A stretch of DNA of 64,000 nt from Chloroflexota bacterium (lineage in GTDB: Bacteria; Chloroflexota; Anaerolineae; Aggregatilineales; Phototrophicaceae): assembly GCA_009841405.1 (NCBI GenBank), contig VXLV01000032.1:1-64000 (forward strand). The letters are read 5' to 3'. The position numbers were made by a program, and so were the translations under genes. This document shows positions 7,491 through 57,768 of this stretch, in pieces (within the stretch, counting starts at the first letter, position 1; every line of letters starts with the position of its first letter). The notes under the pieces were generated by a model that saw only the letters and a program-made list of their open reading frames with translations, searched no databases and was not told where the DNA came from.

Positions 7491-8744
7491 TCAGTCATCG
7501 GAGAGTTCGTCGTCGAATGTGAACGCCGCCTGATCGTCGAAGCGAGCGGTGGCGCAAGCGCCGCTCTGCAGGCAGGCCAGGACTTCCCGCGCGACCGTCT
7601 CGGCCAGCAGCGCGTGTAATTCCGGTCCGTAGTGCTTGGTGGCGCTAAAGAATTCGTCGTTGGCGTGGTCGGGATGCAAGCTGTCTTCGAAAGGGATGTA
7701 GTTGTAAGTTTCGCGGCTGTACTCGAGCAGGAATTGGAAAGGCGCCGCGATACCATTGTAGCGCCAAACCAGATGCGCTTGCAGGGGCAGGTGCAGCACG
7801 ATAAAGGCAGCGTCGGATTGCTGGACATCGCGGGCAAAGGCGTCGACGATCGCTTTGCCGAGCTGCCCGCCTTCGCTGTCGCTGCCGTAGACGTTTGGGC
7901 TCGTGCTGTCGTCTTGTTTCAGCGCTTCATAGAGCAAGCTGGCGAGCCTGCTCCCGGCCCACCAGTTGGCGGCGACATAGCGGCTGCGGTAGTAGTGCTC
8001 GTGGGCTGCCAGGGGTTGCGCGGCGAAGTTCTCAAAGGCGGCGATTAGCTGCTGAGGCGGCATTGTGGGCGAGTTCAACAGGTGCAGCCCGTCGGCGGCG
8101 AGCGCGAAACGGGGTTTGGAAAAGGGCGGGCCGTTAATGTTCATCAATTGACGGAAGACGTTGAGATTGCGTTTGAGGTTGTCCGGCTGCAAGCCGAATA
8201 TCACGAGGTCGGGCGCGAAGGTTTTGCCCTGATGCAGCCAGCGCAGATAGGCTTGGTCCATGCCATAAGCGCCGGCGCCGAAGTTCAACACTTCCGCGCG
8301 GACGCCGGCGGCAGCCAATACCCGTTCAAGCAGGTAGCTCCAGGTCTCATCATCGCTGACGTCATCGCCGGCGGTGAAGGAATCGCCAAAGAGCGCAATG
8401 CGCAGGTGATCCGGCGGCGGCGATTGACTGTATTCGCGCCGCGCGCGGATGCCGACGCCATTCACGGTGAAGTCGCCGTACTGCCGAATGGCATGCGGCC
8501 GGTAGGTCCAGCCGAGGCGCTCGTCATAGATGACGGTCGACCATTCCTCCAGATCCAGGTAGTCCTGGACGGGAGCGCGTAGTTTTTCCAGCGGCAAGAC
8601 ATAAGGTTCCAGGGTGAAGCCCAGGAATGAGAACTGGCCGTCAGCGTCGGTATGCCCGGCAATGCGGATGAAAGCTTCCAGCACGCCGAGCGTGAGCAAA
8701 ATGGCGGCGCAGGCGATGAGCAGATTCGTGGCGATTCTACGCAG
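7491..8744 (-). CDS. SGNH/GDSL hydrolase family protein, paralogue of the 6079-7326 gene
   Basis: 'LRIALFGDSFTAGDDVSDDETWSYLLERVL' closely matches the neighbour; ORF track starts at 8699, but an in-frame CTG at 8744 follows AGGAG. Confidence 0.72.
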   Translation of the reverse strand: MRRIATNLLIACAAILLTLGVLEAFIRIAGHTDADGQFSFLGFTLEPYVLPLEKLRAPVQDYLDLEEWSTVIYDERLGWTYRPHAIRQYGDFTVNGVGIRARREYSQSPPPDHLRIALFGDSFTAGDDVSDDETWSYLLERVLAAAGVRAEVLNFGAGAYGMDQAYLRWLHQGKTFAPDLVIFGLQPDNLKRNLNVFRQLMNINGPPFSKPRFALAADGLHLLNSPTMPPQQLIAAFENFAAQPLAAHEHYYRSRYVAANWWAGSRLASLLYEALKQDDSTSPNVYGSDSEGGQLGKAIVDAFARDVQQSDAAFIVLHLPLQAHLVWRYNGIAAPFQFLLEYSRETYNYIPFEDSLHPDHANDEFFSATKHYGPELHALLAETVAREVLACLQSGACATARFDDQAAFTFDDELSDD

Positions 8745-8942
8745 CGTATTCTCCTTCTAAGCCAGGGTGGACCATTTGGGCGGTTCGCTGCTTCAATCCG
8801 GCCTATTAATATTATCCCAATGTCGCTATTGGCGCAGGTTGGGGCGTGCCATTGGATGAGGAGACGCGCAGGAGAATCAAACACAGAGATCGAAAGAGTA
8901 AACGCAACCAAATCGCGCGATCGTGGCCGAAAAACTGCGAGA

Positions 8943-38013: not shown

Positions 38014-39063
38014 CTAACTGAGCGTGTCATCGCTGGCCGGGTCATAAGCCAGCGCCGGCAGCGCCAGCGTCACGCGGACTTGATTGCCGCGCTGGAAATA
38101 TCTGTCCACGTTGGCGCGCGCGACCAGTTCGACGCCGTCCGCCAGCGCCAGGCCCAGCCGCTGATAGTGCCCGTAGAATTCGCGCCAGCGCACGACAGCC
38201 GGCGTGCCGCGGTCGTTGAACTCGACGGCGAGCGCTTCGGGGCGAATCATCAGTTGCACCGGTCCCGTTTTGGGATGGAAGAGTTTGACTTCGCCCAGTC
38301 GGCTGTTGGCGGTCATCCCGTGCGCTTCGGCCGGCAGGAAGTTGGCTTCGCCGATAAACTTCGCCACCTGGACGGTCGCCGGGCGGTTGTAGATGGCGTG
38401 CGGCGTCGCCACCTGGACAAGCCTGCCGTCGAATATGACGGCGATTTCATCGGACAGGCTCAGCGCTTCTTGCTGATCGTGCGTGACGAATACGGCGGTG
38501 GTTTCCGTTGAACGCAGGATATTGCGCACGTCGGCGCGTACCTGCGCGCGCAGGCCGGTATCGAGATTGGAAAAAGGCTCATCCAGCAGCAGAATGTCGG
38601 GCTCGGGCGCCAGCGCGCGCGCCAATGCCACGCGCTGCTGCTGGCCGCCGGACAGTTCGTGGGGCATGCGCTCCGCGAATTGCGACAAGCCAACCAGAGA
38701 AAGCAATTGCTTCACGCGGCGCTGGCTGTCGGCGCGGGCGCCGCGCAGGCCGAAGGCGATGTTCCCCGCCACGTCCACGTGCGGGAAAAGCGCGAAGTCT
38801 TGAAACACCATGCCGACCTTGCGCCGCTCGGGCGGTGTGAAGCGGGTATCGTCGGCGACGATACGGTTGCTGATTTGGATGCGGCCGCTGGTGGGTCGCT
38901 CGAAGCCGGCGAGCAGGCGCAGTGTTGTGGTCTTGCCGCCACCGCTTGGGCCCAACAATGTCAAGAATTCGCTGGGCCGCACGCGAAGGGTGATATCGTT
39001 CACGGCCGGCGACTGGCCGTTGAAGCGCTTCGTCAAATGATCCGCTTGCAGCGAGTATTCCAT
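38014..39063 (-). CDS. fbpC: ABC transporter ATP-binding protein, Fe3+ type (FbpC-like)
   Basis: Walker A 'GPSGGGKTT', 'LSGGQQQRVALARALAPEPDILLLDEPFSNLD'; TOBE-like C-term. Confidence 0.88.
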   Translation of the reverse strand: MEYSLQADHLTKRFNGQSPAVNDITLRVRPSEFLTLLGPSGGGKTTTLRLLAGFERPTSGRIQISNRIVADDTRFTPPERRKVGMVFQDFALFPHVDVAGNIAFGLRGARADSQRRVKQLLSLVGLSQFAERMPHELSGGQQQRVALARALAPEPDILLLDEPFSNLDTGLRAQVRADVRNILRSTETTAVFVTHDQQEALSLSDEIAVIFDGRLVQVATPHAIYNRPATVQVAKFIGEANFLPAEAHGMTANSRLGEVKLFHPKTGPVQLMIRPEALAVEFNDRGTPAVVRWREFYGHYQRLGLALADGVELVARANVDRYFQRGNQVRVTLALPALAYDPASDDTLS

Positions 39064-39157
39064 TATCTCAGCCGTGCGCGTCGTCTATCGACAGTCCCAA
39101 GCATAGTCGAAATGTGAGATGCATAAAGGGGAAAACGCGCGTACAAACGGCGCGCGA

Positions 39158-40792
39158 TTATGGTGCGACCCTTTCCTGGCGCAGGATGACAAATAGCACG
39201 GTCGCTGACACCAGGATCAGCGCCAGGCCGGGCAGCGCGATGGATGACAGGAAGGCTTCGTCGTAGGCGCTCCAGATGCGCGTGGCGAAAGTGCGGAAGC
39301 CGATGGGGCGCAGAATCAGGGTGATCGGCAGCTCCTTCATGACATTCAGAAAGACCAGCGCCAGGCCGGCCAAAATGCCGGCGCGCGCCAGCGGCACGGT
39401 GATGCGCAGCAGCGCTTCGCGGGCGGTCAAGCCCAGGCTGCGCGCCGATTCTTCAAAGCGGGGATTGATCTGTTCCAAGGCGCTTTCGGTCGCGCCGATG
39501 CTGTAGGGCAGGAAGCGAATGGCGTAACCGAGAACCAGCAGGGGCAGGGTTTGGTACAAGCTGAGCATGTGCTGGGAGGCGAAGAACACCAGGGCCAGGG
39601 CGATGACGATCCCGGGCAGGACGTTGCCGGCGTACGCGAGCTTGACCAGCCAGCGGTCGAAGCGGGAGGCCGCCCGCACAGCCAGCAGCGCCAGCGGCAG
39701 CGCGGCGGCGGTTACCACCAGCGCCGAGACTGCGCTGACGCCGACTGTATTCCGAATCAGCAGTTCAAGCGAAACGTGGATCGGGTCGGTGAGCGTATGG
39801 CCGGCCAGCCACTTGAAGAGGACGAGCAGCGGGACAGCCACGCCCATCAAAATCACTGCCGCGCAGAACAGCGTTGCCGGCAGCTTGAATTTGCCCAATC
39901 GCACAGTCTGAAGTTCGCGCGAGGCGCCCGTGCCGATACGAAAGTGCCTGCCATTAGTGTGCAGGCGCGACTGCAGCGCTAGCAAGAGCATTGTCATTGA
40001 AATCAGAAGCAGGCCCAGAACTGACGCTTTATCCATGCGGAAGGATTCGGTTTGGATGAAGATGGCGCGCGTGAAGGCGTTGAAGTGCATGACGGCGACC
40101 GCGCCAAAATCGCTCAAAGTGTAGAGCGCGGTCATCAGCATGCCGGTTGAAAGCGCGGGCCGCAGTTGCGGCAGCGTAATCTGACGGAAGACCTGCCGGC
40201 GATTCAAGCCCAGGCTATGGCCCGCCTCCTCCAGGCTGCGGTCAGTGTGAAGCAAGGCCGCGCGAACGGGCAGCACGACGTAGGGAAATGTGACAAAGGC
40301 GAGCGTCAGCGTTGCGCCAACAAAGCCTTTGATGCTAGGCAGGCGGTCGACGCCGAAGGGTTCCAGCGCTGACTGCAAGATGCCCTTCGGGCCAAAGGCT
40401 TCGCTATAGGTCACTGCGGTCAAATATGACGGGATGACCATTGCCGCCAGCCCCAGCACGAGGAAAAGCCGCCGGGCAGGCAAGTCGCAGCGGCTGGTCA
40501 GCCAGGCAAAGGGGATCCCGATTAGCGTCGCCAGCAGGGTTGTCGTCAACATCAAGCCTACGCTGTTGCCGACGATGCGGATGGTGCGCGTCCTGAGCAA
40601 GTAGTCGATGCCCTCTTGCCCGGCGCCAACCGCGCCGATGACCAGGTACGCTACTGGAATCATGACGCTGGCAACGACCAACAGGCTAATTCCCTGTACG
40701 AGTTGGCGATTGCCGATGTGCCAGCGCGCCGGCAGTTGACGCCGCTGGCCGCCGCCGCGAAATCTGGTTGGTAAGATGCTCGATAGCTGCAT
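39158..40792 (-). CDS. fbpB: Iron ABC transporter permease (FbpB-like, duplicated permease domain)
   Basis: Two inner-membrane permease EAA-like segments ('EEAGHSLGLNRRQVFRQITLPQLRPAL', 'EESARSLGLTAREALLRITVPLARAGI'). Confidence 0.88.
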   Translation of the reverse strand: MQLSSILPTRFRGGGQRRQLPARWHIGNRQLVQGISLLVVASVMIPVAYLVIGAVGAGQEGIDYLLRTRTIRIVGNSVGLMLTTTLLATLIGIPFAWLTSRCDLPARRLFLVLGLAAMVIPSYLTAVTYSEAFGPKGILQSALEPFGVDRLPSIKGFVGATLTLAFVTFPYVVLPVRAALLHTDRSLEEAGHSLGLNRRQVFRQITLPQLRPALSTGMLMTALYTLSDFGAVAVMHFNAFTRAIFIQTESFRMDKASVLGLLLISMTMLLLALQSRLHTNGRHFRIGTGASRELQTVRLGKFKLPATLFCAAVILMGVAVPLLVLFKWLAGHTLTDPIHVSLELLIRNTVGVSAVSALVVTAAALPLALLAVRAASRFDRWLVKLAYAGNVLPGIVIALALVFFASQHMLSLYQTLPLLVLGYAIRFLPYSIGATESALEQINPRFEESARSLGLTAREALLRITVPLARAGILAGLALVFLNVMKELPITLILRPIGFRTFATRIWSAYDEAFLSSIALPGLALILVSATVLFVILRQERVAP

Positions 40793-40860
40793 GGAATCCC
40801 TGGCGAATCAACCGGGCGAGGACAGACCCCGCCCATTTTCTGCCAACTCTTGCGCCGGAC

Positions 40861-41880
40861 CTAGTCCAGCGCGCCGCTGTTTTCGATCATTTCCAGCGTA
40901 CCCTGCAGGTCATCAAGATCCGACAGGTCGATTTCCGGCGCTTCGATATCGACGAGCGCGGGCAAGTCGACGCTCGGCTCGACAGTTTCCACCAGCGGAT
41001 ACTCGTAAGTTGTTTCGGCGAAATACGCCTGGGCGGCGTCGCTCAACAGATAATCGACCAATTGCAGTGCGAGATCCTGCTGGTCGCTGCTCTGCAGGAT
41101 TGCGGCGCCGGCGACGTTGATCAGCGAGCCGACATCGCTGCCGGGGAAGAAATGCAGCGTCGCGGTGATCGTGGGATCTTCGGCCAGGAAGCGATACAGA
41201 TAATAGTGATTGACCAGGCCGACCGCGATTTCGCCATTGATGACGGCTTGCACGATCGGCGTGTTCTTGGGATAGGCCTGCACATCGTTGGCGATCATGG
41301 CGGCTAGCCAGTCTTCGGCGTCGCAATCGCCGAGCAAAACGCGCATGGCCGTGACACTGGCGACGAAGGAAGCATTGGTCGGCGCCCAGCCAACCAACCC
41401 GCGCCAAGTCTCGTCCGTCAATTCCAGTATGGATTCAGGCAACTCGAGCCCCATCTCGTTGAGCATTTCCGGATTGTAGACCAGGACGCGCGCGCGACCG
41501 CTCAAGCCGACCCAGAGGCCGTCGGGCGAAACAAAAGCGGCGTCGACAACGCGGTTCAGGGTGGCGTCGGGCAGACGCTGCAGCATGTCCGCCGCCGCCA
41601 AGGCGCCCAGGGCGCCGCCATCCTGCGCGATGAATACATCGGCCGGACTATTATCGCCCTCGGTCAGGATCTGGTTGGCGACCGCGCTCGTGCCGCCGTA
41701 GAGGATTTCGACAGCGACGCCGGTTTCCTCGCTGAATTGCGCCAGGATGGGACCGATCAGGCTCTCGCTGCGGCCTGAGTAGATAGTAAGGACCTGTTCG
41801 TCATCGGCGAATGCCGGCGCGCCGACTAGCGCGACAAGCAGGATGACCAGGCTAAACAGGATAAAACGTTGTGTGGACAT
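40861..41880 (-). CDS. fbpA: Iron ABC transporter substrate-binding protein (FbpA-like)
   Basis: Signal peptide then 'LTIYSGRSESLIGPILAQFSEETGVAVEILYGGTSAVANQILTEGDNSPADVFIAQDGGALGAL'. Confidence 0.9.
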   Translation of the reverse strand: MSTQRFILFSLVILLVALVGAPAFADDEQVLTIYSGRSESLIGPILAQFSEETGVAVEILYGGTSAVANQILTEGDNSPADVFIAQDGGALGALAAADMLQRLPDATLNRVVDAAFVSPDGLWVGLSGRARVLVYNPEMLNEMGLELPESILELTDETWRGLVGWAPTNASFVASVTAMRVLLGDCDAEDWLAAMIANDVQAYPKNTPIVQAVINGEIAVGLVNHYYLYRFLAEDPTITATLHFFPGSDVGSLINVAGAAILQSSDQQDLALQLVDYLLSDAAQAYFAETTYEYPLVETVEPSVDLPALVDIEAPEIDLSDLDDLQGTLEMIENSGALD

Positions 41881-41903
41881 AAGGCGCGCTCCTTGCGTTT
41901 GCT

Positions 41904-41925
41904 GCAAATCCACGTTAGGATTTGC
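41904..41925. promoter_or_regulatory. Palindromic candidate operator GCAAATCC-acgtta-GGATTTGC upstream of fbpA
   Basis: Perfect 8-bp dyad 24 nt upstream of the fbpA start codon. Confidence 0.45.
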
Positions 41926-42269: not shown

Positions 42270-42746
42270 ATGTCGAATTGGTGGGGAACGCGCAAAAACG
42301 TCTCGGCCCGCCTGGTATGGGAAGTCGAGGCGATGAAAGCGGCCTTTGGCAATACCTTTAAGTTGGTCGTGCCTCCCTTTGGCGGTTTGCTCTATTGGCA
42401 GGGCATTGTCGAAATTAACATGAGCATCCTGGATTCGCCGCGACACAGCCTGAAACTCGTTTATCCCAAGGAGTATCCCAATCGGCCCGCCGAAGCCTAT
42501 TGCGTCAAGCCGCGGATTTACAGCGAAAAGCACCAGTACGAAGATGGCCAGCTATGCTTGTTCAATCCAAAGGACGGCGAACAATACGGCTGGAACCCGT
42601 CAAAATCGACCGCGGTGACCGTAGGCGGCTGGGCGATACAATGGCTCTACGCCTATTACACCTGGCGCTCCACCGGCAACTGGCCCGGAATTGAAGAACG
42701 CATCAAAGCGAGCACGCCCTTGCCCCGCCGCCACCGGAGACGTTAA
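42270..42746 (+). CDS. Prokaryotic E2-like (UBC-fold) protein with candidate catalytic Cys
   Basis: 'SLKLVYPKEYPNRPAEAYCVKPRIYSEKHQYEDGQLCLFNPKDGEQYGWNPSKSTAVTVGGWAIQWLYAY': H...G-x-LCLF...W pattern of bacterial E2-like families; Cys codon at 42555-42557. Confidence 0.72.
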   Translation: MSNWWGTRKNVSARLVWEVEAMKAAFGNTFKLVVPPFGGLLYWQGIVEINMSILDSPRHSLKLVYPKEYPNRPAEAYCVKPRIYSEKHQYEDGQLCLFNPKDGEQYGWNPSKSTAVTVGGWAIQWLYAYYTWRSTGNWPGIEERIKASTPLPRRHRRR

Positions 42747-42748
42747 AC

Positions 42749-44020
42749 ATGTGGACAGCGGATGAACCGGAATTCATCAGGCTGGTGCAAGCCGAGGTCG
42801 TACATATCAGGAATCGCTTGCGAGGGATGGCGATGATTTCACGCGGGATCGTACCGAACTTGGTCTTGTCGCAGCGGGCGGTTGAGCGCATGCTGTCGGC
42901 GGCCAGCCAATTCATGGCGGATGAGACCGGCGAAGCCATGGTGGGATTTGTCATTGAAGATGACACGCCGGAAGGGCTGCCGACAATCTATGTGCTGGAC
43001 ACGATATCGCCGGACGAAACCGCGGTGCGCCGCTCGCATACGTTTCAGCAGGGCGACGCGCTGCAAGACGAAATCATCTGGTGGCTGCAGGAGAATTGGC
43101 ACTTTCACCGCGAGCGCCATCGCGGCAGCGAAGCGCTGCAAGACCGTTTCGATGTTCCCTTGCGGTATCTGGGCGATTGGCACAAGCAACCCGGTTCCAT
43201 GATCCAGCCCAGCCACGGCGACCACATGACGGCGCTGACCTGGCTCGACGATGAGGACCTCGGCATGGACTCGCTGCTGGTTCCGATTGTCACGGTGGGA
43301 CATGCGCCCATCATTGGCGAATCAGACCTGGCGGTAAACTATATCACGGTACCGATGGACAATGGCACGGATATGCGGGTGGATTGGTGGTATATCCACC
43401 GCGATGTGCGCAAATTCCAGCCGGTGCATCCGGTGGTCGTGCCCGCCGAGCAACTGCCGTCGATGATGAAATACGGCTGGCACGTGGTGCTGGCCGATAG
43501 ACTGACCGACGAGACTTTCGCGCTGGCGGATGATGGCCTGCTGGTGCGCACGCTCTTTTACGAATGCGATGGCGAGGTGCCGCTGGAATTCTGCTTCATC
43601 ACCATCAGGCAAGGCGCTTCTTCTTTTCTCTTGTTCGTCACGCAACACGATTATCCTCACAGCGCGCCGCAAGCCTATCACGCGCCTTACGTCGCCGGTG
43701 TTGATCTGATGGATCCGGTCGCCAGTTTTCAGCTTCTCTGGGAGGTGGCCGAGCCAATTGCGGACCCGGCGGATTGGGATTGGTCCAGCGACAAAGGGCT
43801 CCTCGACTACCTCATCGCGATTGAAGTTGAGATGGGCTTGCGCCAGCCGCCGATACAGATCATTCCTGTGATAGATTTCGCCGACGCGGCATTGGACGCA
43901 GCTGACGGCGGGTTGGCTGGGGCGTCTGATTCTGCTGATGCCGATGACGGACGAGTCAAAAGCCGGCGACACGACGACGAAGAACTGCGTACGAATACCG
44001 AGGCGCAAGAGCATGACTGA
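42749..44020 (+). CDS. JAB/MPN (JAMM-like) deubiquitinase-family protein with extra C-terminal domain
   Basis: 'ETGEAMVGFVIED' + 'YLGDWHKQPGSMIQPSHGDHMTAL' in JAMM spacing (H-x-Q-P variant); C-terminal ~150 aa UBC/RWD-like pattern. Confidence 0.75.
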   Translation: MWTADEPEFIRLVQAEVVHIRNRLRGMAMISRGIVPNLVLSQRAVERMLSAASQFMADETGEAMVGFVIEDDTPEGLPTIYVLDTISPDETAVRRSHTFQQGDALQDEIIWWLQENWHFHRERHRGSEALQDRFDVPLRYLGDWHKQPGSMIQPSHGDHMTALTWLDDEDLGMDSLLVPIVTVGHAPIIGESDLAVNYITVPMDNGTDMRVDWWYIHRDVRKFQPVHPVVVPAEQLPSMMKYGWHVVLADRLTDETFALADDGLLVRTLFYECDGEVPLEFCFITIRQGASSFLLFVTQHDYPHSAPQAYHAPYVAGVDLMDPVASFQLLWEVAEPIADPADWDWSSDKGLLDYLIAIEVEMGLRQPPIQIIPVIDFADAALDAADGGLAGASDSADADDGRVKSRRHDDEELRTNTEAQEHD

Positions 44021-44939
44021 ACTATGGGAACGCGTGGAGCGGCTGATCGGGGCAGAGAATCTGGGGCGCCTCTCGGAAAAGAAAGTGGCGGTCGTGGGTC
44101 TGGGCTCGGGCGGTGGCTTTGTAGCGCTCGGCCTGGCGATGAGCGGCGTCGGCGCCTTCGTCCTGGTGGACAGCGATGTTCTGGAAGCGGGCAACGTGAC
44201 CAGGCATGTCTGCGACCTGCGCGATGTCGGCCGGAACAAAGCCAAGGCCGTCGCCGACCTGATCATGAATCGCAACCCCGAGGCGCTTGTCGAAACCCGT
44301 GACGGCGCGATAGAAGACCACTGGGATTGCCTGGACGATGTTGACATCCTGGTCGCGGCGGTGGATGGCGAACAGGTGAAGTTTTCCATCAACGAGCAGT
44401 GCCTGGAAAGACGCCTGAGCGCGTCCTACGCCGGGGTGTACGAACGCGGCGAAGGCGGCGACCATGTCATTATCCGTCCTTATGACGGCCCTTGCTACGC
44501 CTGCTGGTCGGAAGCGACGCGGGATGGCGTCAAGGTGGCGATGAGCCCGGGCGGCGAACTGGACTACGGCATGATCGGCGAAACGGGCACGCTGGAAGCG
44601 GAGCCGGGGCTTTGGGTCAATGTCACCAAGGTGGCGGGCATTCAGACGGATCTCATTATCAATGAACTGCTGCGCGGCGCCGACGCGCACGAAGAGATGC
44701 CGGCCAATACGCTTATCGTAACCAACACTTACATGGACATTTTCGAGGGGCAAGAAAATGATCCCCATAGCGGGGTCTGGATAGACATCGGGCGCGACGC
44801 GGATTGTCTCGTCTGCGGGGAACGGCTGAAGCAGGGCGTTAGCCTGCTGGTCGAGGGCGACGAGGGCAGCATTTCGCTGGCTGATCTGGCGGCATCCGGC
44901 TTGACGACCGATATCGAATTCGAAGACGAGGACGGCTAG
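44013..44939 (+). CDS. ThiF/E1-like adenylyltransferase with two CxxC zinc motifs
   Basis: 'KVAVVGLGSGGGFVALGLAMSGVGAFVLVDSDVLEAGNVTRHVCDLRDVGRNKAKAV', 'CYAC'...'CLVC'; overlaps the JAB stop by 8 bp. Confidence 0.9.
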   Translation: MTELWERVERLIGAENLGRLSEKKVAVVGLGSGGGFVALGLAMSGVGAFVLVDSDVLEAGNVTRHVCDLRDVGRNKAKAVADLIMNRNPEALVETRDGAIEDHWDCLDDVDILVAAVDGEQVKFSINEQCLERRLSASYAGVYERGEGGDHVIIRPYDGPCYACWSEATRDGVKVAMSPGGELDYGMIGETGTLEAEPGLWVNVTKVAGIQTDLIINELLRGADAHEEMPANTLIVTNTYMDIFEGQENDPHSGVWIDIGRDADCLVCGERLKQGVSLLVEGDEGSISLADLAASGLTTDIEFEDEDG

Positions 44940-46691: not shown

Positions 46692-48014
46692 TTGATCACC
46701 GTACGCGTTCGCGAGAAATTCGAGATGCAAGTGATTACTTCAAAGCTCAGTACGAAGTTTAGTGATGTCGTCAATCCTTATGGCGGGCACGGAACCATAA
46801 ATGGCGATCAGACTGATTTTGAAATAGGGCAAAGAAGTGACGGTTCTATAGTATTGTGTTGTGACCGGCGTCTGAACTGGAGCGACAACTGCCTCGTGGC
46901 CGGTGTGACATGTGATCGTCAGAAGATACATGCTCAAGGCTTTGTAAAGACTGTAATGGGTGCGTATTCCGACTACGCGTTCAAAAGAGAGCATCGCGAT
47001 TACTTCTATAGATCAGTATACGAATTCGGATTGAGCGTTGGTGAGAGCGACTGGTCAAGAGTACACACTTTGGTATTCGATATTACAAATCTCGTTTTCT
47101 TAGGAAATTCCAATAGTAGCGGAGGTTTCTGGCCATTTGGCGATACGTTGAAAGTGGAATTGGAGGGTATTGAACTAACATTCAAAAAGCTTCCTGATTA
47201 CGAGATGGTAGTTGATAGACTGAACGACGAGGGCGGGACAGCCACTACTTGTCAACTTGAGATTGAGATAGGCAGTCACAACGAGCATGACGTAACTCGC
47301 GTAGTCAGAAACGCCTGCAGTTTGTTGAGCCTTGCGAGAGGCATACAGATCAACTGGATAACATGCAGGCACTTTGATGATGCGGGTAACAATTTTTTTA
47401 CTCTGCATCGGAGTACTGTAACGTCAAGTTTTCAAGACTTTGAGGTAATTGAATCAACGCATTTGGACGCTACCGAACGATTTCTAATTGACACTTATCC
47501 CACATTTTCCGCACAGAATACACAGTACAAATATAGTCAATTTGCTCATGTTCTAGTTGACATTCAATCGGCTGGATTTCTTGAAACGCGGTGCCTAGCA
47601 CTATATACAGCTGTTGAGACTTTGTCTCGAAAAGTAAACAACCGAAAGTCCATAAATGGCAAAAGAGTCACGTTGAAGAAGAGATTATACGATTTCATGG
47701 TACATCATCAGGTACCAGTTTTCGTTTGTTCCAATGGAAAGTGCTTGGACAAAAGTGCTAAATGCATGGAGAACTGCGATATTGGCTTTTATGTGAAGTG
47801 CAGAAACAAACTGGTTCACCAGTCGGAATTCTATTCAGGAAATCCAAAGAACGAATACAAAAGGAATATTAATTTGTTTCACAAAATGCTATTGAGGGCG
47901 TTGAATTACAACTATAAGTATATAAACTGGCATGACGGTTGGAATATGAAGGGCCAATCCTCCGAAGATTTATCCAAAGGGCCGTTCATGCTCAGTAATC
48001 CACAGACATTTTGA
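46692..48014 (+). CDS. HEPN-like domain protein (candidate Rx4H RNase, defence-associated), low-GC, probably horizontally acquired
   Basis: C-terminal 'GFYVKCRNKLVHQSEF' (R-N-K-L-V-H = Rx4H) after a Cys-rich 'CSNGKCLDKSAKCMENC' segment; AT-rich codon usage; TTG start or ATG at 46725. Confidence 0.6.
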   Translation: MITVRVREKFEMQVITSKLSTKFSDVVNPYGGHGTINGDQTDFEIGQRSDGSIVLCCDRRLNWSDNCLVAGVTCDRQKIHAQGFVKTVMGAYSDYAFKREHRDYFYRSVYEFGLSVGESDWSRVHTLVFDITNLVFLGNSNSSGGFWPFGDTLKVELEGIELTFKKLPDYEMVVDRLNDEGGTATTCQLEIEIGSHNEHDVTRVVRNACSLLSLARGIQINWITCRHFDDAGNNFFTLHRSTVTSSFQDFEVIESTHLDATERFLIDTYPTFSAQNTQYKYSQFAHVLVDIQSAGFLETRCLALYTAVETLSRKVNNRKSINGKRVTLKKRLYDFMVHHQVPVFVCSNGKCLDKSAKCMENCDIGFYVKCRNKLVHQSEFYSGNPKNEYKRNINLFHKMLLRALNYNYKYINWHDGWNMKGQSSEDLSKGPFMLSNPQTF

Positions 48015-57510: not shown

Positions 57511-57768
57511 ATGAGCGACGAAAAAAGAAACCGCAACGAAGATTCGGATGAAAACCTGAACGGTCCGTCGGGCGAGGATATGGGCGATCGCCTGGAGCGC
57601 CTCGGCGGCGAGCCGGCGCCGGCCATAACGCCGGAAGAATTCGAGCGCTTGCAGAAAGCCGGACAGGTACATATCGATTCTCGTGGGCGCGTGCGCACGG
57701 CGCGGCGCAGCGGCGCTGAGGCCGGGGTATCGCTGCGCAAACGCCGGGCTTGGTACGGCGCGCGCTAA
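57511..57768 (+). CDS. Small hypothetical charged protein
   Basis: 85-aa ORF MSDEKRNRNEDSDENLNG... preceded by an AGAGGTAGGT-like RBS. Confidence 0.5.
   Translation: MSDEKRNRNEDSDENLNGPSGEDMGDRLERLGGEPAPAITPEEFERLQKAGQVHIDSRGRVRTARRSGAEAGVSLRKRRAWYGAR

Follow-up and report, generated by a model that had tools for sequence, protein, structure and literature searches.

A probable core E1-E2-JAB operon in a Chloroflexota order, with a small predicted non-beta-grasp protein as candidate conjugation partner

Background

The bacterial operons encoding an E1, an E2 and a JAB peptidase that the literature describes occur sporadically, and several of them are defence systems. In CBASS, Cap2 is an E1-E2 enzyme which conjugates cGAS, a protein without the beta-grasp fold, via its C-terminal Gly/Ala, and the JAB protein Cap3 is its isopeptidase partner (PMC10097602). 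The four-gene Bil system (BilABCD), which resembles type 6d of Iyer 2006, comprises BilA, a two-domain beta-grasp Ubl with a C-terminal Gly, the E2 BilB, the deubiquitinase BilC and the E1 BilD; a sequence-only reading of the DNA studied here had given BilC as the E1 and BilD as the deubiquitinase, the reverse of the literature.

Here we describe an operon with separate E2, JAB and E1 genes from a 64,000-nucleotide stretch of DNA (the window; positions 1 to 64,000 of contig VXLV01000032.1) of a Chloroflexota bacterium of the order Aggregatilineales. RING-type prokaryotic Ubl systems, reportedly described by Burroughs in 2011 as having an E1, an E2, a JAB and sometimes a YukD-like Ubl, resemble the module in that JAB, E1 and E2 are separate, and also in the small domain fused to the E2 N-terminus in two distant loci (L094 and L096). 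Unlike these systems and the FtsH-ternary systems, the module has no YukD-like Ubl and no EAD1 or caspase-like effector, and no RING gene was recognised among the operon's neighbours in the window. The 2011 set may overlap with Chloroflexia loci of the L007 type, and YukD-like proteins were found at L101 and L092. Passages of Kaur 2020 deal with the FtsH-ternary systems and mention a related Ubl system in a Thermofonsia lineage.

On its sequence features the module belongs with the prokaryotic E1-E2-JAB operons in general (type 6 of Iyer 2006), having an E2 with an active-site Cys and a ThiF-type E1 without rhodanese; as to the type 6 JAB and its metal site (E + HxH...D), the window protein has the JAB fold and its clade keeps E/H/S/D, with HxQ in most members. 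Like CBASS Cap2/Cap3 (types 6a-6b), it combines an E2 bearing an upstream His and a Cys, a ThiF-type E1 and a JAB isopeptidase homologue with no Ubl in the operon. It differs in that Cap2 is an E2-E1 fusion whose E1 has a Cys, whereas here E2, JAB and E1 are separate and the E1 has no catalytic Cys, and also in its HxQ JAMM site, in an extra RWD-like domain on the JAB, in being core rather than patchy and in having a small fourth protein in place of the cyclase. The Bil system shares with it four genes, with separate E1, E2 and JAB and a small partner, yet there is no Ubl beside the present operon and the fourth protein is a predicted helix-hairpin; the adenylation domain of BilD is inactive and the protein has Cys417, whereas this E1 is a single ThiF domain in which only the CxxC cysteines are invariant, and neither the CEHH motif of BilB nor the loss of the canonical upstream His in type 6d E2s holds for this E2. 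Type 6e operons (polyUbl, RWD, JAB-E1) are similar in that an inactive E2/RWD-like domain accompanies JAB and E1, but the present module has no polyUbl, its active E2 is present and the JAB itself carries the RWD-like domain as a fusion. The module thus falls outside Bil, CBASS and YukD-type systems as these are defined. The suggestion in the sequence-only reading of a hallmark E1-E2-JAB module of a distinct subtype is upheld to this extent, while its framing as a ubiquitin-like and defence-related system is not.

Gene arrangement and component proteins

The E2 (UBC-like) conjugating enzyme gene (42270..42746, + strand, 158 amino acids), the JAB/JAMM gene (42749..44020, +, 423 amino acids) and the gene for an E1-like adenylyltransferase of the ThiF/MoeB family (44013..44939, +, 308 amino acids) follow one another with a gap of 2 nt and an overlap of 8 bp respectively in the window ORFs. 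A longer E1 ORF beginning at 43938 was dropped and the start set at 44013, because the relatives begin at the equivalent position. The E2-JAB-E1 order is identical in nearly all of the approximately 39 family loci that were read out, apart from contig ends and G408, where E1 sits on a different contig. All three genes also keep this order in most of 80 named genome loci, and it was found again in almost all genera of the family, so the arrangement is not due to chance; E2 and E1 are separate genes in all loci read. The tight coupling on one strand and the unfused order that had been noted from the sequence are therefore both borne out, and the three genes are co-conserved in relatives.

The E2 is matched by PADLOC E2 models (to 3e-15), by human UBE2L3 in the PDB (to 5e-6) and, in a profile comparison, by the bacterial E2 structure 8hsb (3e-9), which supports the E2 relationship of the 42270 gene and its earlier description as an E2-like protein with an LCLF cysteine. 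Its Cys96 (codon 42555-42557) sits in GQLCLF with His88 upstream; both residues are invariant in our alignment (A1), and the Cys of the LCL motif is kept in 121/121 E2 homologues. The E2 itself also contains an RWY/WW-like motif.

The JAB protein consists of an N-terminal MPN domain, a predicted RWD/UBC-like C-terminal domain and an acidic disordered tail. Its assignment to the JAMM family is supported by the PADLOC JAB profile (3e-8) and by an AlphaFold2 model (pLDDT 85.6) for which the best PDB matches in Foldseek were BRCC36, Rpn11 and CSN5, but the motif is DWHKQP and not HxHP, the JAMM core (W144-H145-K146-Q147-P148...S155...D158, 43178..43222, +) having Gln at the position of the second His ligand. 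Of the 107 JABs of the clade, 97 have Gln here and 10 have His, while Glu59, His145, Ser155 and Asp158 are invariant in all 107. On the E1+E2 tree, which comes from a short search with several open forks and SH-aLRT as its only support measure, the H/Q label switches four times and the His-bearing L150 is nested in a well-supported Gln clade. Since the rest of the JAMM site is frozen, the simplest reading is that the Gln would still support the metal site, although HxQ could also represent a weakened or binding-only site; this natural H/Q variation is a ready system in which to ask whether a JAMM peptidase can work with Gln in place of His.

The C-terminal domain of the JAB (approximately residues 240-365, 43466..43843, +) has no catalytic Cys. 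In the model it consists by DSSP of a helix, four strands and two helices, and it carries a conserved YP...P motif with P303 present in 107/107. Pfam and PDB sequence searches with this domain gave no meaningful match, so that the RWD/UBC-like fold is a prediction taken from the model.

The E1 matches ThiF in Pfam (2e-28) and has two CxxC pairs, at residues 161-164 (44493-44504) and 265-268 (44805-44816), as the sequence-only reading had proposed. GxGSGG, R64, K76, D118 and both CxxC pairs are invariant in the alignment, and among 108 E1 sequences the invariant cysteines are limited to the four of the CxxC pairs. The window protein has no crossover-loop catalytic cysteine and none at the position aligned with Cys184 of ThiF. 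As judged from these alignments, the E1 is thus without the usual catalytic Cys.

A small fourth protein

Clustering of neighbours across the family loci exposed a small gene directly after the E1 gene, and an iterated profile located it in most loci; in most relatives it immediately follows E1, and in the window it lies 13 kb downstream (57511..57768, +, 85 amino acids). The N-terminus of the encoded protein is disordered and of low complexity; the conserved part reads RLERLGGEPAPxITPEEFARLQxAGQVHIDxRGRVR, followed near the C-terminus by GVSLRKRRAWY, in which KRRAWY is invariant. From RAWY to the C-terminus there are 0-16 residues (mostly 0-3); in 5 of 50 proteins nothing follows RAWY, and the tails of the others differ in sequence. 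The residue after RAWY is Gly/Ala in 29/45, where approximately 7 would be expected (binomial 4e-13, uncorrected for ancestry). There is no Gly-Gly at the C-terminus, and an internal LGG was not favoured as a processing site because it is LSG in 7/50 and most of the conserved part lies downstream of it. AlphaFold2 models the protein with low confidence (pLDDT 65.6) as a hairpin with two short helices, and a beta-grasp fold is not predicted.

The fourth protein is present in 135/154 genomes of the order, and across these 154 genomes it and the E1 are both present in 131, both absent in 16 and discordant in 7 (3 + 4), counts which are uncorrected for ancestry; three entire families account for 12 of the 16 double absences. 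The gene is also kept where it is unlinked from E1, at a distance of at least 11 kb in the genus g1, on other contigs in G443 and G453 and approximately 150 kb away in G541. In distant loci (Chloroploca L095/L007, Chloroflexales L093, Chloroheliaceae L091, and L089, L090, L092 and L101), a protein of 54-103 amino acids with a helix, a hairpin and a C-terminal KPxRWF is encoded directly upstream of E2, RWF being the exact C-terminus of five of these proteins. A small RWF/RWY element also forms the N-terminus of the E2 in Terriglobia (L094, 6845-7426) and Bathyarchaeota (L096, 6836-7402), each of these fused E2s sitting in an E2/E1/JAB cluster. The near and distant small proteins are matched modestly by profile comparison (E 6e-4, probability 28%), and so the case for their homology draws also on position, size and layout.

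It is likely, from this pattern, that the fourth protein belongs to the E1-E2-JAB module. The sequence-only reading had overlooked it, together with the missing catalytic Cys of the E1, the HxQ site and the RWD/UBC-like domain of the JAB. A 113-amino acid coiled-coil gene after E1 in L006 was also considered as a fourth component and was rejected, as it was not seen at the other loci.

Distribution and inheritance

The genomes sampled, which include Aggregatilineales and other Anaerolineae/Chloroflexota among the named relatives, are mostly MAGs, and the counts given are raw, with kinship ignored. E2 was present in 94/98 family genomes, in all 63 of those of good quality and in all 24 genera counted; E1 was present in 134/154 genomes of the order and absent from three of its families (f94, f95 and f97). 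Plasmid and phage collections had no E2 match, and in the wider phylum, at a cut-off of 1e-5, an E2 match was found in only 7 of 400 genomes, two of which (G080 and G120) have a CBASS-type E2 adjoining a nucleotidyltransferase. The E2s of the f2 and f31 genomes (L085-L087) are likewise CBASS-type in appearance, in an unrelated context, and were set aside. One family genome (L072; G437 contig C1) has a second, CBASS-type E2, so that defence-type E2s appear patchy beside the universal E2-JAB-E1 operon.

The presence of E2 in all good-quality family genomes and of E1 in most genomes of the order argues for an inherited core operon and not a patchy defence island. Core status is well supported, and by its sequences the module is very probably an E1-E2-JAB conjugation set and a core trait of the order. 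If a bacterial order does carry such an operon near-universally and by vertical descent, it would offer a rare example of ubiquitin-like conjugation serving normal bacterial physiology.

What the E1 may activate

Cap2 conjugates cGAS, which is not a beta-grasp protein, and by analogy the fourth protein is proposed here as the conjugated partner; we infer that it is the leading candidate for a non-beta-grasp protein which E1, E2 and JAB would activate, conjugate and release. The E1 would adenylate the C-terminus of this partner and, because it has no catalytic Cys, the acyl group would be handed from the adenylate directly to Cys96 of the E2, which would join the partner to target amines. The RWD-like domain of the JAB could act as a docking platform for the E2 step, and the JAMM site (Glu59, His145, Gln147, Asp158) could trim the residues after RAWY and/or take the tag off, so that CBASS Cap2/Cap3 logic would be put to housekeeping use. 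The conjugation chain is favoured by the invariant E2 Cys, the E1 adenylation residues and the JAMM Glu/His/Ser/Asp. In favour of conjugation of the fourth protein are its conservation with the module, the Gly/Ala after RAWY, the five distant versions with RWF at the very end and the precedent of cGAS, which ends in Gly/Ala; against it are the lack of a C-terminal Gly-Gly, the variable tails, the distant versions which end in Phe and the weak profile match between near and distant proteins. The E2 N-terminal fusions and the RWY/WW-like motif in E2 are also compatible with a role in docking or regulation. The probability that all of these steps hold and that the fourth protein is what becomes conjugated we put at roughly 0.4. 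That a core housekeeping cascade conjugates a small, largely disordered non-beta-grasp protein via an aromatic RAWY/RWF C-terminus, using a Cys-less E1 and a Gln-ligand JAMM, is a more tentative proposal; if true, a modifier unrelated to ubiquitin would nevertheless be handled by ubiquitin-type enzymes. The operon may in that way attach an unusual tag in everyday cell life rather than in virus defence.

It is possible, if somewhat less probable than the whole chain, that the conjugated species is instead an ordinary beta-grasp Ubl encoded elsewhere (a CysO-like/MoaD-type carrier or an undetected protein); the fourth protein would then act as an adaptor, as a cofactor of E2 or as an E3-like docking module, as its place beside E2 and its fusion to E2 in L094 and L096 would allow. 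The window genome (G000) does encode two ThiS-fold proteins, one of which has residues after its GG that would need trimming, but each has its own partners, the first being a MoaD-MoaE fusion and the second a carrier encoded beside its own MoeB-rhodanese E1 and canonical JAB. This second set (L170/L005, on contig C129 of G000) consists of the MoeB-rhodanese protein, the ThiS-like protein with residues past GG (SIAGGRGQRMEN) and a JAB with the canonical HSHP. No beta-grasp gene was found recurring beside the operon across the family loci, no YukD Ubl (PF08817) was found in G000, G457, G429, G496 or G514, and Pup (PF05639) is absent from G000. The YukD, Pup and ThiS families were consequently rejected as the missing modifier; a divergent beta-grasp Ubl beyond detection is possible. 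A PF00227 match (L171) is a single proteasome-like Ntn-hydrolase and not a 20S pair, with no link seen to the module. Since no beta-grasp Ubl is encoded alongside the module and a search elsewhere found none dedicated to it, the label "ubiquitin-like" that the operon had been given is not supported in its strict sense. With no Ubl in evidence and a small partner conserved, it can be asked sharply which protein the E1 activates.

Chemistry of the MccB or sulphur-transfer kind, in which the Cys-less E1 would only adenylate a small peptide or carrier and E2 and JAB would process the product with no protein tagging, we regard as improbable. Among PDB sequences the E1 is nearest to PaaA and MccB, its lack of a catalytic Cys would suit such a role, and sulphur-carrier E1-JAB sets are known (PMC1779556), but a conserved E2 with an active-site Cys has no role in the known pathways of this type and no sulphur or biosynthetic genes recur beside the operon. 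There is a similarly small chance that the fourth gene belongs to the core genome independently of the operon and only shares its synteny: 13 kb separate the two in the window genus, where the fourth gene adjoins a Nudix gene, and many core genes have the same phylogenetic pattern, yet a similar small protein stands beside or fused to E2 in Chloroflexia, Terriglobia and Bathyarchaeota loci whose neighbourhoods are otherwise different. An anti-phage module of the Bil or CBASS kind, beside which the operon had been framed, might be suggested by the defence role of related E1-E2-JAB operons and by the matches of E1, E2 and JAB to PADLOC profiles, but is very unlikely given that the operon is universal in good-quality family genomes and inherited across the order, that it has no cyclase, Ubl or effector and that other E2s in the phylum are rare.

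Genomic surroundings

Genes for an iron ABC transporter recur beside the operon in the family loci, as do PIMT-like, Nudix and PfkB-type genes, and no conserved neighbour of the CD-NTase or effector kind appears in the ORF lists of the window and the family loci, so the housekeeping neighbourhood with no CBASS cyclase that had been noted from the window is borne out. In the window an iron-type ABC transporter (ATPase, permease and binding protein; 38014-41913, - strand) is divergent and upstream of the operon, as in many other genera. Downstream of E1 in L040, L041, L067, L068 and L069 there is a PIMT-like methyltransferase with a C-terminal extension of approximately 200 amino acids, followed by Nudix and PfkB-type genes; in many relatives this run follows the fourth gene, and a link to protein damage is conceivable. 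The PIMT-like gene is near the operon in 18 loci, but was rejected as a member of the module, as it is beside neither the operon nor the fourth gene in the window.

Three Chloroflexia loci (L007, L084 and L093) have E2, JAB and E1 amid RWD/UBC-like-looking proteins, SPFH/Band 7 and repeat-rich proteins and a HerA-like ATPase, surroundings which may represent an elaborated, membrane-linked form of the same module. At the Chloroflexi locus L101 a gene for an HTH-STAND NTPase (7536-8933) lies between E2 and JAB, and a YukD-like TPR protein is also encoded there. In the window, a gene for a 440-amino acid protein (46692-48011, +) lies in an AT-rich island (GC 0.38-0.48 against approximately 0.62); the protein has no Pfam or PADLOC match, its RNKLVH motif recalls the RxxxxH of HEPN proteins, and the gene looks like a recent, possibly defence-related insertion.
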